In this document: positions 120 through 3,746 of the stretch, piece after piece
How positions within the stretch are numbered: position 1 is the first letter of the stretch
Layout: every line of letters begins with the position of its first letter
From: Patiriisocius marinus
Lineage (GTDB): Bacteria > Bacteroidota > Bacteroidia > Flavobacteriales > Flavobacteriaceae
Length of the DNA stretch: 64,000 nt
Direction of reading: 5' to 3'
Assembly (NCBI RefSeq): GCF_008974325.1
Contig: NZ_BKCG01000002.1
Location: 1 to 64,000 of the forward strand
Translations under genes and position numbers: made by a program
Notes under the pieces: model-generated
Databases searched by the model: none
The model's input: the letters and a program-made list of their open reading frames with translations, nothing else
What the model was told of the DNA's origin: nothing

Positions 120-249
120 GGCAACGGGATTGTATAAGAATAGTGCGGTTTTGTATGCGAGGATTTTCTGAAGGAAAATCAGACGTAACAAAACTGCACT
201 AACCTTTGATTAAGCACTAACTACCGCATTATTTTTATACGGTGTTACC
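120..249 (-). repeat. attC-like integron recombination site (site A)
   Basis: This is a 130-nt imperfect palindrome. On the plus strand the outer boxes are GGCAAC (120-125) and GTTACC (244-249). The inner arms are GTATAAGAATAGTGCGG (132-148) and CCGCATTATTTTTATAC (224-240), with two mismatches that are both G-T pairs. The spacers are 6 nt on the left and 3 nt on the right. Two further nested stems lie inside: 142-154 with 188-200, and 162-168 with 174-180. The loop shares a motif (196-217) with site B. Box, asymmetric spacer, arm and loop is the attC layout. The family R-box consensus is only matched at the AAC/GTT core. Read on the minus strand, it closes the TM2 cassette. Confidence 0.6.
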
Positions 250-259
250 TACCGTATTT

Positions 260-565
260 TTATTCGGCTGTCTTATTTTCCGCTTGAACAGGAGCAGGTG
301 TTGGCTGCGTTGGAGCAGTAACATTTACGACAACATTTTGATTTTGATTTACATTTCCTCTGTTCGGTCCGATAAATCCGTTCATTAAATTGTATTTATC
401 AACCATTCCTCCAAGAATAAATAGGTCAATTATCCATCCGATTCCGAATAATTGTCCTGTTAATAAATACAGAATTCCACTTCCAACTTTTCCAAGGTAA
501 AATCTATGGGCAGAAAATATCCCAAGAAAAAACCATAATAAGTAAGCTACTCCTTTTGATTTCAT
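260..565 (-). CDS. TM2 domain-containing membrane protein
   Basis: This is a 101-residue protein with a TM2 domain at about residues 1-60: two hydrophobic helices joined by a short turn, with the family pattern FFLGIFSAHRFYLGK followed by GSGILYLLT and IGWIIDLF. The tail (about 65-101) is polar, rich in Asn, Gln, Pro and Val, and probably disordered. The molecular role of TM2 proteins in bacteria is not settled. The gene lies alone between attC-like sites A and B and reads in the same direction as its neighbours, so it is the cargo of one cassette. Its leader of about 160 nt (566-726) is long for a cassette, and I see no clear promoter box in it. Confidence 0.85.
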   Translation of the reverse strand: MKSKGVAYLLWFFLGIFSAHRFYLGKVGSGILYLLTGQLFGIGWIIDLFILGGMVDKYNLMNGFIGPNRGNVNQNQNVVVNVTAPTQPTPAPVQAENKTAE

Positions 566-721
566 AAAATTATTTTTTTGCTTATTAGATATAAATTCAG
601 CGTTAGTTAATTGATTAGAGTTTGTAAATCTTTATCAGAGTTTAGTCCAATAACAAACTTTTTATTTATTTTTCTATGTTATTTACTTTTCATATCTATC
701 TCAATTTTTGTCAATATGGTA

Positions 722-851
722 GGTAACGGTTAGTATATGAAAAGTAGGCGATTTTGAAGCACTAAACTTTCGGTTAAGCACAAAGTTTGATACGAGCCAC
801 AACCCTCGAATTTACTACTGTTTCGCCTATTTTTTATATACATTGTTGTAC
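722..851 (-). repeat. attC-like integron recombination site (site B)
   Basis: The outer boxes are GGTAAC (722-727) and GTTGTAC (845-851). The inner arms are GTATATGAAAAGTAGGCGA (733-751) and TCGCCTATTTTTTATATAC (823-841), with two G-T pairs. The left spacer is 5 nt (728-732) and the right spacer 3 nt (842-844), so the layout matches site A. The loop motif at 759-781 is nearly the same as 196-217 in site A. On the minus strand the site follows the PHP-ATPase gene directly and precedes the TM2 gene. The extended first box (845-858) is the inverse of 3642-3655, just upstream of the ATPase gene. Confidence 0.6.
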
Positions 852-859
852 TGCGTTAT

Positions 860-3628
860 TTATCCTATTTTTTGATATTTATTTCTTCTTTTTTCAAATG
901 CAATTTCACCACCTTCAAGGATTTGACAGATTTTAGAATTTATTTCATTATCCTCAAGACTTCCGCTAGTGTAATTAAGTTTTCCATCAAGATTTGAAGC
1001 GACAATTACTTGTTCTGCATCTGCGTTTACAACCAAGTTTGCATTATGTGTAACAATAATCACTTGTCTGTATTGCTTTAATTCCTTGAAAAGCCCAATC
1101 AGATTTTGCATAATAAACTCATTATCTAAATCATCTTCTGGTTGGTCAAAAATTATTGGTTTAGAAAAAGCTTCTGTTGCGAGCATCATCTTTAAATAAA
1201 CAGTTCCTTTTTGTCCAACAGAAATTTTGTTTAAATCCTTGCCTTTGTACTTCAGTATCGGAAATACTTTTAAATACTTTTTCCTTTCTAGTTCGTCAAA
1301 GAGTTTGTTTTTAAAAGTTTTACTATGAATACCATCATAATGATAAAATTCAAGATATCTGTTTCTAAGAAATTCAAAAAACGTATCTAAGTCTCGAATT
1401 TCAAAGGAGTTTTTTTGAGCTTCTTTATTTCCTTTAATTCTCCATTTTGCTCCATCTATGCAATGATATATTTCATCATAAAATTTTGAAACATCAAAAT
1501 CTACTTTAACCTCAATTTCAAGGTCAGTTAAAAGATTTTTCATTATAGATTTTTGAGAGGGATTTAAGGTGTCTTTTGAATCTACATCCTTAAATTCGTC
1601 CCAACTTTTAATAAGCTCAACGACTTGGTTGTCATAGTCAAGCTTCATCTTGTCTATTAATGAAATAGAATCGTCTGTCGTTTCGAAAATTGATATTTTC
1701 AAACTTTCAAGTCTTTCTTTTCTAGTTTTTGAGACAGCAATGTTTTCACGAATTTCAGATAAGCTTTTTTGAAATTTATCAATGTCATTTAAAAGCGTTG
1801 TTAGGTCACCTTTGTAATCCTTGAATTCCTCTTTAACAACAGATATAGTTACAGATATAGATGCTATTTCTTTTTCGAGTTCACCTTTCCAATTGTTGAT
1901 TTCGTCAAATTGTTTTTGTAAAGAATTCAATTCAATAATTGATATTCTTTTTAAATCTCCATTTGTTTTGATGATTTTTAAATTGAGTTCTTCAATAGCA
2001 TTTTTAAGTTCGTTTTCTAACTCCAATAATTCCTTCAGCTTAGAGTTTAAGTTGTTTCTAAGCCTTAAGTTCTCTGAATATTTTTCAAGTTTATCTTTAT
2101 TTTCACTAGTAGTGATATTGCTAATGAAATCGTTAATTGATTTTTCTTGAATTTCTAAATATTCTATTGAGTTTATTAAATTATTATCCTCATCCTTTTG
2201 TTCGAAGAACCTCTCCAGTTCGTGATACTCATTAATCGATTCACGAATTTTCTTGTCTAACTCTGTATTAAATTCTGGTTGCTTTAGTTTGGCTAATCGT
2301 CTGATTGAATTTGCAAGTTGGAATTGCTTGTCTTTCTTTTCAACTAAGTTTTTTAGACGACCTTGATTGATGTAAATGAAATCAACAGCTTTTTTATCCT
2401 CGGTCAAGTCAAAATTTATAATATCCTCCTCACTTTGATTCGACTTATGATATGATAAATTAACAACACCATTTTTATTGAAATCACCCTCTTTAGAATG
2501 TTCTTGGCCTATAAAACTACTGGCTAAATAATCTGTAAGCATACTTTTTCCTTCTCCACGTCCTCCGATAATTGCAACGAGGTTCTGATTTAAAGGTATG
2601 CTTTCATTTTTTGAAAAACTTAAATCTTCTTCATCTTGAAATACGTTTACATCATCATTAATTGTGATATTTGAGATGTAAGGTTTATCAAATTCTAAAT
2701 TCGGATTGCTATCAGAGATTTTTATTCTCTCATTTGGTTCATATAATATTTGAACTAATCCTTCAAAAGTAGGGTCTGCTTTAATCCAAGTAAAACAGTT
2801 ACCAATTCTATCCTTGTCAGTTTCTGTGGATAAATAATGCGAATCACTACAATCCAAAAGTATATCATTTACTTGTTGAGCTGTTAGTTGTGATTTGGCT
2901 TTATGATAAGCTTCAATGGACTCAGAAGCTGTAAAAACAATGTCCGCTTTGTTAATTATTGATTTTTTAGTCGCAATAGACGCATCAGTCCACTTTAAAT
3001 CACCCCATTCTGTTTTTCCAATAGCAATTAGGTATTTTCCTTTGAAACAATCTTTTTGTAACGCTTCGAAAATCTTATCCTCTTTTACATTTAAATTATT
3101 GAATCCTTCAGTTAAATCAGTACCATATTTGTGTAATTGCTCTGGGGGAACACTACTCTTTATTTTTGCACCAAGTTCTTGAACGCTTTCTTTTGTTATT
3201 GCTCTTGTCCATTGTTCTCCATTTTCTAAAAAATAACTTTGTTCAAGAGTTTGTAAGAATTGACTTTTGATAGTTTCTAAAGGTAATTCATTAGAAAAAA
3301 TAACGTGTAAATTGATTCTCTTTAATTGTCCGAAATCGATTCCTGCAAATTTTTCAATTCTAAATTCAACAACAGGTAATAAAAGGTCAATGTTTTTAAG
3401 TTTACCGTTAGTAGTCTTTTCGTTAACAAGCCTCTCATAGCCATCAATGAAGAAATAATCATTGATTCCTAATACTGAAAAATCAGAAGGTAATTTTTCT
3501 AAATCGTCAATATATTTTTCCCAAGTTTCTTCAGTATCTGCACCATATCTATGGTAAATTGAGGAAGGTGTATGAACGTGTAAATCCCATTTTCTCCATT
3601 CAGAACCTTTCGGATATTTTTTACTCAT
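860..3628 (-). CDS. PHP domain plus SMC/ABC-type ATPase (TrlF-like)
   Basis: This 922-residue protein joins two modules. The N-terminus is a PHP-type phosphoesterase: DLHVHTP at residues 15-21, an INDYF segment near 55, and a CSDSH metal motif near 260. Then comes an ABC/SMC-type ATPase: Walker A GGRGEGKS near 355, a long coiled coil about 440-690, signature ISVGQKG near 804, Walker B IIFDQPEDDLD near 828 and the H-loop VTHNANL near 861. All catalytic motifs look intact. It resembles the TrlF family of AAA-like ATPases. PHP-SMC fusions are often found in defence and nucleic-acid repair settings, so a defence role is my inference, not shown. The gene starts 13 bases after the cassette boundary (3642-3655) and ends directly against site B, so it is a single-gene cassette of about 2.9 kb, large for an integron. 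Confidence 0.85.
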   Translation of the reverse strand: MSKKYPKGSEWRKWDLHVHTPSSIYHRYGADTEETWEKYIDDLEKLPSDFSVLGINDYFFIDGYERLVNEKTTNGKLKNIDLLLPVVEFRIEKFAGIDFGQLKRINLHVIFSNELPLETIKSQFLQTLEQSYFLENGEQWTRAITKESVQELGAKIKSSVPPEQLHKYGTDLTEGFNNLNVKEDKIFEALQKDCFKGKYLIAIGKTEWGDLKWTDASIATKKSIINKADIVFTASESIEAYHKAKSQLTAQQVNDILLDCSDSHYLSTETDKDRIGNCFTWIKADPTFEGLVQILYEPNERIKISDSNPNLEFDKPYISNITINDDVNVFQDEEDLSFSKNESIPLNQNLVAIIGGRGEGKSMLTDYLASSFIGQEHSKEGDFNKNGVVNLSYHKSNQSEEDIINFDLTEDKKAVDFIYINQGRLKNLVEKKDKQFQLANSIRRLAKLKQPEFNTELDKKIRESINEYHELERFFEQKDEDNNLINSIEYLEIQEKSINDFISNITTSENKDKLEKYSENLRLRNNLNSKLKELLELENELKNAIEELNLKIIKTNGDLKRISIIELNSLQKQFDEINNWKGELEKEIASISVTISVVKEEFKDYKGDLTTLLNDIDKFQKSLSEIRENIAVSKTRKERLESLKISIFETTDDSISLIDKMKLDYDNQVVELIKSWDEFKDVDSKDTLNPSQKSIMKNLLTDLEIEVKVDFDVSKFYDEIYHCIDGAKWRIKGNKEAQKNSFEIRDLDTFFEFLRNRYLEFYHYDGIHSKTFKNKLFDELERKKYLKVFPILKYKGKDLNKISVGQKGTVYLKMMLATEAFSKPIIFDQPEDDLDNEFIMQNLIGLFKELKQYRQVIIVTHNANLVVNADAEQVIVASNLDGKLNYTSGSLEDNEINSKICQILEGGEIAFEKRRNKYQKIG

Positions 3629-3641
3629 AAAGTTTGTTTTT

Positions 3642-3660
3642 TAATGCAGTACAACTCGTT
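3642..3660 (-). repeat. Cassette boundary, half-site next to core genome
   Basis: On the minus strand the sequence is ATAT, then the 5-nt spacer AACGA, then the box GTTGTACTGCATTA (3655-3642). This is the right half of a site like A and B, where TATAC plus 5-6 nt precedes GTT. I find no matching left half in 3661-3746. The box is complementary to 845-858 at 13 of 14 positions. It marks the junction between the cassette DNA and the core gene at 3747, and could be an attI-like site or a worn attC. Confidence 0.45.
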
Positions 3661-3703
3661 ATATAATTAACTTTGTCATGGTTATCCCGTATTATAAACA
3701 GGA

Positions 3704-3732
3704 TAACAAAGGGAATATGTCATGCATATCCC
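3704..3732 (-). terminator. Possible terminator of the glutamate-synthase-like gene
   Basis: On the minus strand a hairpin forms from CCC/GGG-bounded arms (3724-3732 with 3711-3719, one bulged base) about 15 nt after the stop at 3747. It is followed by TTTGTT. A second stem (3681-3687 with 3701-3707) lies next to it. The T stretch is short, so this is a modest call. Confidence 0.4.
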
Positions 3733-3746
3733 GTAACTAAAATAGA

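Follow-up and report, generated by a model that had tools for sequence, protein, structure and literature searches.

The R box of classical integrons follows the consensus GTTRRRY. In the available part of a review on the V. cholerae island (PMC12409362), the first cassette position is assumed to be the most highly expressed in classical integrons, and integron defence systems are described as streamlined to small size, with systems of more than two genes absent. Defence genes travelling as integron cassettes are known from Vibrio and from mobile integrons, according to one source and the reference list of another (PMC12409362; PMC13092281). For Bacteroidetes, the available section of the IntegronFinder 2.0 report lists nothing beyond In0 elements, which come from an earlier study, and a single complete integron, that of Salinibacter ruber (PMC9024848), and an earlier survey, in its accessible portion, accepted only integrases with the additional domain (PMC2426708). 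Among single-gene defence systems, Ppl is presented in an excerpt of a 2026 review as a 3′-5′ single-strand exonuclease, whose PHP and NTPase parts are restrained by bound NTPs and freed when the phage drains the pool and 3′-OH ends appear (PMC12904381).

Here, we analysed a stretch of 64,000 nucleotides from Patiriisocius marinus (contig NZ_BKCG01000002.1, positions 1 to 64,000; hereafter the window), in which a large gene of the TrlF family lies in an integron-like array. The system shares with integrons a one-orientation array of mostly single-gene cassettes, a hairpin site at the 3′ end of the cassette, complementary cassette ends with a GTT/AAC core, a bottom strand that is calculated to fold better, a head site that is attI-like by sequence, and defence cargo. 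It differs from them in a recombinase that appears to lack the additional domain (I2) of the integron integrase IntI and that, in Flavobacteriaceae, points the same way as its array, in an R box that departs from GTTRRRY, in pairing that extends to 14 nt with a fixed mismatch, and in sites that are 122 or ~190 bp long. With CALIN elements it has in common the clusters of cassettes in a genome without IntI, whereas many clusters in relatives have a non-IntI recombinase at their head and this genome has several attI-like heads. Judged by sequence, we regard the platform as integron-like in manner and not as a classical integron by membership.

The window encodes a predicted fusion of a PHP domain and an SMC-type ATPase

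The protein-coding features of the cargo gene are as follows.

860..3628, minus strand: trlF-like gene, 922 aa, PHP plus SMC-type ATPase (NF045780 match)
2684..3628, minus strand: PHP domain, residues 1-315 (predicted fold and conserved D15, H19, D57, E88 and D262)
2543..2566, minus strand: Walker A, residues 355-362 (sequence and conservation)
1124..1159, minus strand: Walker B, residues 824-835 (sequence and conservation)

The initial annotation had read this gene as a 922-residue fusion of a PHP phosphoesterase with an SMC/ABC ATPase, all motifs intact, and the full-length family match, the predicted folds and the invariant residues bear this out. The protein matched the TrlF family of AAA-like ATPases (NCBIfam NF045780) with 525 bits against a cut-off of 350, covering model positions 1-944 of 944. 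Pfam alone reported no PHP domain and gave AAA_23 and SMC_N, both below the cut-off; a sequence search found no TrlF homologue with a solved structure. An AlphaFold model of residues 1-325 had a pLDDT of 88, and its best Foldseek match was Pol III alpha (9.9e-4). When the same model was compared by VIA-align, it aligned with Endonuclease Q (EndoQ; Z 14.2, rmsd 5.4, 227 aligned), with RNase AM (Z 13.8, rmsd 3.8, 225 aligned) and with the PHP domain of Pol III (Z ~12), and Z fell from 11.0 to 7.0 once the PHP proteins were passed. The model thus indicates that the PHP fold of the N-terminal part is real.

A model of the whole protein, built from 22 sequences (pLDDT 81, pTM 0.66), matched the heads of SMC, JetC, cohesin, condensin and Rad50. 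In an alignment of 22 divergent TrlF members, 18-82% identical to the query, D15, H19, D57, E88 and D262 were invariant in the PHP part, and we take these five residues to be the PHP metal ligands. In the ATPase part, G355, G360, K361, Q422, S803, G805, D828, P830, E831, D835 and H861 were invariant, so that the Walker A, Q, signature, Walker B and H-loop residues are all conserved across the 22 relatives. With Walker A, signature, Walker B, H-loop and a predicted SMC-type head, the C-terminal part has the features of an SMC/ABC ATPase.

The antiphage protein Ppl is similar in design, with PHP and NTPase in one chain and a related C-terminal ATPase: PADLOC matched TrlF to Ppl at 1.1e-23, in the C-terminal region only, the best stretch being the last 120 residues, and to LmuB at 9e-5. 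Against the Ppl model (NF042955), however, TrlF scored 106.1 bits, far under the cut-off of 1000. Wadjet JetC, Lamassu LmuB, Rad50 and SMC resemble it in the SMC-type head with a coiled coil, by predicted fold, but TrlF combines this head with a PHP domain in one chain, and its cassette contains no partner genes. We found no functional study of TrlF in the open-licence literature, and no mention of it in the accessible part of the DefensePredictor paper. A second, divergent TrlF gene of the same genome (G000 C4:10788-13631, L048) is without cassette ends.

The trlF gene forms a cassette behind an attI-like site

The cassette features of the window are listed below.

3656..3725, minus strand: attI-like site at the array head, adjoining the trlF cassette (conserved motif)
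727..3654, minus strand: whole trlF cassette as mobile unit, running from the T behind the cut in G|TT up to the G of the following GTT (cut position inferred by analogy with integrons)
3642..3655, minus strand: start of the trlF cassette, with GTT, private nucleotides and A at nt 11 (identical in Tenacibaculum L083)
845..858, minus strand: end of the trlF cassette, the reverse complement of the start except for the conserved mismatch at nt 11 (end pairing)
725..847, minus strand: attC-like hairpin site of the trlF cassette, a 123-bp imperfect palindrome (99.2 bits, covariance model)
126..726, minus strand: TM2 cassette, the second in the array, its ends at 714-727 and 244-257 (7/7 variable nt complementary)
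260..565, minus strand: gene of the second cassette, a TM2-domain protein of 101 aa (PF05154, 6e-20)
124..246, minus strand: attC-like hairpin site of the TM2 cassette (104.8 bits), beyond which the array continues up to base 1, where the contig ends

A single gene of about 2.9 kb between cassette ends had been proposed for this locus, and the unit measured 2.93 kb (727-3654). Its two ends form a case of perfect pairing, the start reading GTTGTACTGCATTA and the end, reversed, GTTGTACTGCGTTA; over the whole inverted repeat (3642-3655 and 845-858), 13 of 14 positions agree, and the sole mismatch is the conserved one. In a control of 2,000 random window pairs, an end-pair score of at least 10 occurred once. 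Searches of the window against Rfam and for tRNA genes gave no match.

Cassettes for which no preceding site was recognised had a conserved stretch of 70 nt upstream, ending in ATATAACnA before GTT; this stretch was defined on a subset, the other cassette starts having preceding sites that a simple scan had overlooked. The resulting attI-type motif matched seven times in 697,908 strand-bases of loci from this genome. All seven matches were array heads, one of them the head of the trlF cassette in the window. Since the 70-nt motif precedes the trlF cassette, this cassette is the first in its array, and the sequence argues for an attI-like site at the array head, as in integrons. When the window copy was used as the query in a DNA search, strong matches appeared at six further places in the genome. 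The copies at G000 C1:12012, C1:66232, C1:397454, C2:432099, C3:6475 and C5:62369 are dispersed and most of them head an array; no recombinase gene was noticed alongside. The fold of positions 3630-3745 was unremarkable, and a reading of this region as a degraded attC was rejected in favour of the attI-like head.

attC-like sites are widespread in the genome and the family

We built a covariance model (R1) from an alignment of 29 site copies of this genome and searched the whole assembly, which comprises 3.56 Mb in 28 contigs and is 100% complete. R1 matched 66 times with E ≤ 1, and 64 of these matches reached E < 0.01; the sites were clustered, with one orientation per cluster, many lying at contig ends or filling whole small contigs. 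In the direction of the gene, the sites have the layout AAC-3 nt-GTATATAAnnnATAGCGG...CCGCTACnnnTCATATAC-5 nt-GTT and are 122 or ~190 bp long. Counted from the G of GTT, the nucleotide at position 4 was a purine in 130/131 cases and that at position 5 in only 52/131, and the sites do not conform to GTTRRRY. Among related genomes, R1 sites were found in at least 174 of 199 Flavobacteriaceae; as at most 13 candidates were scored per genome in this search, and at most six in a search of 395 genomes, the site counts are lower bounds.

The cassette-specific nucleotides that follow GTT are complementary to the end of the same gene's cassette and not to the other end of the site. At least five of the seven variable positions were complementary in 66/72 consecutive site pairs (cassettes < 1.5 kb, with copies of a 242-bp cassette entered separately), in contrast to 11/131 when both ends came from a single site and ~10% for random pairs. 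The complementarity reaches nt 14 and is interrupted at nt 11 by a fixed A/G mismatch. Cassette ends that pair across the gene follow the same logic as integron cassettes, whose ends join in the excised circle to form the outer stem of the site. When junctions were closed in silico, the bottom strand had the lower folding energy in 103/104, a count slightly favoured by the choice of closed junctions, which partly used the A at nt 11; the site cores alone, free of this effect, folded better as the bottom strand in 116/128, as compared with 81/185 random 150-mers. In 61/77 validated cassettes the longest ORF was in the forward direction. The 242-bp cassette, which has no sizeable gene, occurs in identical form at four places in the genome (C20 twice, C10 and C1:400k; L043, L046, L146).

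Hairpins that are numerous and intergenic could in principle be chromosomal repeats, such as terminators or elements of the MITE or REP type, with the flanking genes there by chance. Given the private end pairing across genes, the attI-like heads, the same-strand arrays and the identical cassette ends in two genera, we consider this explanation extremely improbable, and on the basis of the end pairing we rejected a functionless chromosomal repeat as the identity of the site. Taken together, the imperfect hairpin, the complementary cassette ends and the GTT/AAC core are those of an attC site.

A recombinase related to IntI is associated with the arrays

No integron integrase scored over the cut-off in this genome, and none was found at 1e-60 among 299 Flavobacteriaceae; the same search across the phylum was positive in 107 of 395 genomes, one of them in the same class, and this positive control indicates that the search was sound. 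The best candidate of the genome is P0002, a tyrosine recombinase of 387 aa on contig C4 (L049:7851-9025). Its PDB matches include VchIntIA (2a3v; 1e-36) and XerA (3e-36), and it scored 202 bits with TIGR02249, below the cut-off of 265, model positions 180-240 being missing. The spacing of the catalytic boxes was 65 residues in the array recombinases, 106-107 in the IntI rows and 73 in the Xer-type row of this genome (L050), in a comparison that leaves out two rows of array recombinases (the same protein) and one Xer row. In a tree of 51 proteins, a branch with 100/100 support set 24 IntI apart, and the 22 array enzymes of Flavobacteriaceae grouped together (89/87). An integrase with I2, which is part of the integron definition, was thus not found here, with no IntI, a spacing of 65 versus 106-107 and separate clades, and by these sequence comparisons the recombinase at the array heads is a sister of IntI without I2.

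At 20 recombinase loci of relatives, 12 of which were picked for nearby sites and eight were not, R1 sites were found in 20/20, and thus in 8/8 of the unselected loci. Among the 19 loci with an intact ORF, 18 carried the attI-type motif 24-205 bp after the recombinase stop and the 19th at 2,022 bp; nine of the 19 were outside the definition of the motif, and in 9/9 of these it lay at 24-36 bp. Close relatives of P0002 (1e-70) occurred in 60/199 family members, of which at least 58 also have sites. By a hand count, at least 116 of the 139 genomes without such a relative still have sites, which means that the link between recombinase and sites is not exclusive. P0002 itself has no adjoining array; all that follows its stop is a truncated attI-like remnant, and the enzyme would therefore have to act in trans. 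It seems that the original platform of this genome has been lost, while copies of attI head arrays elsewhere.

R1 arrays also occur in distant Bacteroidota (L208, L210 and L212), where they adjoin recombinases without the I2 patch and with the 65-residue spacing; there, recombinase and array are divergent, which is also the arrangement of classical integrons, and a search behind the recombinase gene gave no attI motif. The genomes of L208 and L212 also contain IntI. In the neighbourhoods of IntI elsewhere in the phylum, 9/10 were without an R1 site, and in one (G432) R1 sites and IntI lay together on a stretch of 19.5 kb (L217). In other Bacteroidota classes, one genome can contain both R1 sites and IntI.

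The G432 locus, the occurrence of IntI in the phylum, the attC-like anatomy with its bottom-strand bias, and the ability of IntI1 to use an attC site of a Polaribacter phage, as stated in an excerpt (PMC9892861), would agree with a CALIN, that is, with plain attC sites moved by a classical IntI that now resides elsewhere, enzymes of the P0002 type being bystanders. We consider this unlikely, because IntI is absent from the 299 Flavobacteriaceae while sites are present in at least 174/199, nine of ten IntI neighbourhoods are without R1 sites, a patch-less recombinase with an attI-type site heads the arrays in 18/19 loci, and the GTTRRRY consensus is not kept. The motor of the cassette array is probably the non-IntI recombinase.

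The trlF cassette has moved between genera

Whether the same gene stands with the same type of site in other genomes had been raised as a check, and a copy in Tenacibaculum sp. 1_MG-2023 (L083) has both end sequences. The two TrlF proteins are identical at 759/922 residues (82%), and the start AGTTGTACTGCATTAAAAAACAAACTTTATG and end AACGCAGTACAAC of the Tenacibaculum cassette are identical to those of the window, while the surroundings differ. This cassette also lies behind an attI-like end, ATATAAACAA before GTT. An 82% identical copy with the same ends in other surroundings indicates that the unit has moved. No attC-like hairpin was recognisable after the 3′ end of the L083 copy; the site may have decayed there, which would fix the gene at that place. 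Tandem repeats that code for a low-complexity protein (L083:5265-5820) immediately precede the attI-like site of this copy.

Had trlF been a fixed core gene in relatives, the proposal of a moving cassette would have failed. Searching 59 genomes with the window TrlF at 1e-50 left 57 without a match, the two matches being the genome itself and G006, which has a divergent member at another location and without cassette ends; we thus rejected trlF as a core gene. TrlF genes were present in 29/397 Flavobacteriaceae genomes. Besides the window and L083, cassette-type ends with a score of at least 10 were found at L163, L165 and L167, with R1 sites on both sides of L167 and a partial R1 site behind L163, and R1 sites lay near L178 (score 8) and L177. 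Altogether, three clear and two likely loci with cassette ends were found among 29 further TrlF loci, and the majority of TrlF genes stand outside recognisable cassettes. Cassette ends at divergent TrlF loci of at least three further genomes, set against one in 2,000 random pairs, suggest that the system took up this family repeatedly. The trlF unit is almost certainly a mobile cassette. Of the earlier idea that the gene moves as an integron cassette, mobility stands, as seen from the Tenacibaculum copy and the absence of trlF from the core, but membership in the integrons in the strict sense does not, as IntI was found neither in this genome nor among 299 Flavobacteriaceae and the array-head recombinase is without I2.

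Sibling cassettes carry defence genes

Cassettes of this system had a median size of 837 bp (n=100), in agreement with the expectation that cassettes are usually below 1 kb, but this holds in a milder form, as 9/100 were 2.8 kb or longer. Using PADLOC and Pfam on 37 cassette proteins from this genome, we identified an EcoRI-type enzyme (3.2e-152), two type IIG restriction-methylation enzymes, AbiGi and AbiJ, and in addition a Schlafen AlbA domain and an interferon-inducible-type GTPase. At least six of the 37, TrlF included, matched PADLOC defence families. Among 63 proteins from elsewhere, Avs4, PD-T4-1 and further restriction families were found. The EcoRI, type IIG, AbiJ and AbiGi genes in other cassettes make a defence role of TrlF likely, and this role is plausible from its kinship with Ppl, its domain design and the defence genes in sibling cassettes.

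A real cassette could nevertheless carry cargo for another purpose, and TrlF might repair DNA ends or handle nucleotide stress: the repair enzyme EndoQ and the RNA-processing RNase AM are among its nearest PHP folds, its ATPase resembles Rad50 and SMC, and other cassettes carry non-defence cargo, for example TM2, TonB receptor and FMN-binding domains. We hold this to be the less likely alternative, given the patchy distribution of the family, the relationship to Ppl and the share of cassette proteins in PADLOC defence families. By analogy, we lean towards TrlF being a defence nuclease. As it has the two parts of Ppl and a related C-terminal stretch, a nuclease licensed by DNA ends or by stress is to be expected.

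Discussion

The observations as a whole are best explained, in our view with good probability, by a single-gene mobile trlF cassette that stands first in an integron-like array, has a non-IntI motor and carries defence cargo. The array would run from the attI-like site through the trlF cassette and the TM2 cassette on to the contig end, each cassette having its own inverted repeat of 10-14 nt. Upon excision as a circle, the two ends would meet and close the long hairpin that makes up the attC-like site. Cutting at G|TT and insertion of the cassette at the attI-like site would most likely be the work of a tyrosine recombinase, an I2-less sister of IntI, and in this genome the enzyme would be P0002, acting from contig C4 in trans; we infer all three of the recombinase role, the single-stranded substrate and the cleavage point. 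For TrlF, the example of Ppl suggests that the SMC-like ATPase may sense DNA ends or the nucleotide state and then license the PHP domain to cut phage DNA.

More broadly, the data tend to favour a second integron-type system of gene capture, beside true integrons, in Flavobacteriaceae and other Bacteroidota, in which an I2-less sister of IntI would move cassettes that end in hairpins, with folded single strands as the probable substrate, and stock them with large defence genes such as TrlF. In the open-licence literature, as far as its accessible parts go, we recognised no published description of such a platform under integrons in Flavobacteria or integron-like tyrosine recombinases, and a text search of the Commun Biol 2021 paper returned no mention of Bacteroid or Flavobacter. 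A platform with a different recombinase would escape integron definitions that accept only integrases with the additional domain. In contrast to the streamlined systems described for V. cholerae, a single-gene system of 2.9 kb and several restriction enzymes travel as cassettes here. If the proposal is true, I2 is not required for single-strand cassette recombination, and a natural array recombinase without I2 makes the I2 question testable. It would also give a large and common bacterial family its own cassette library.
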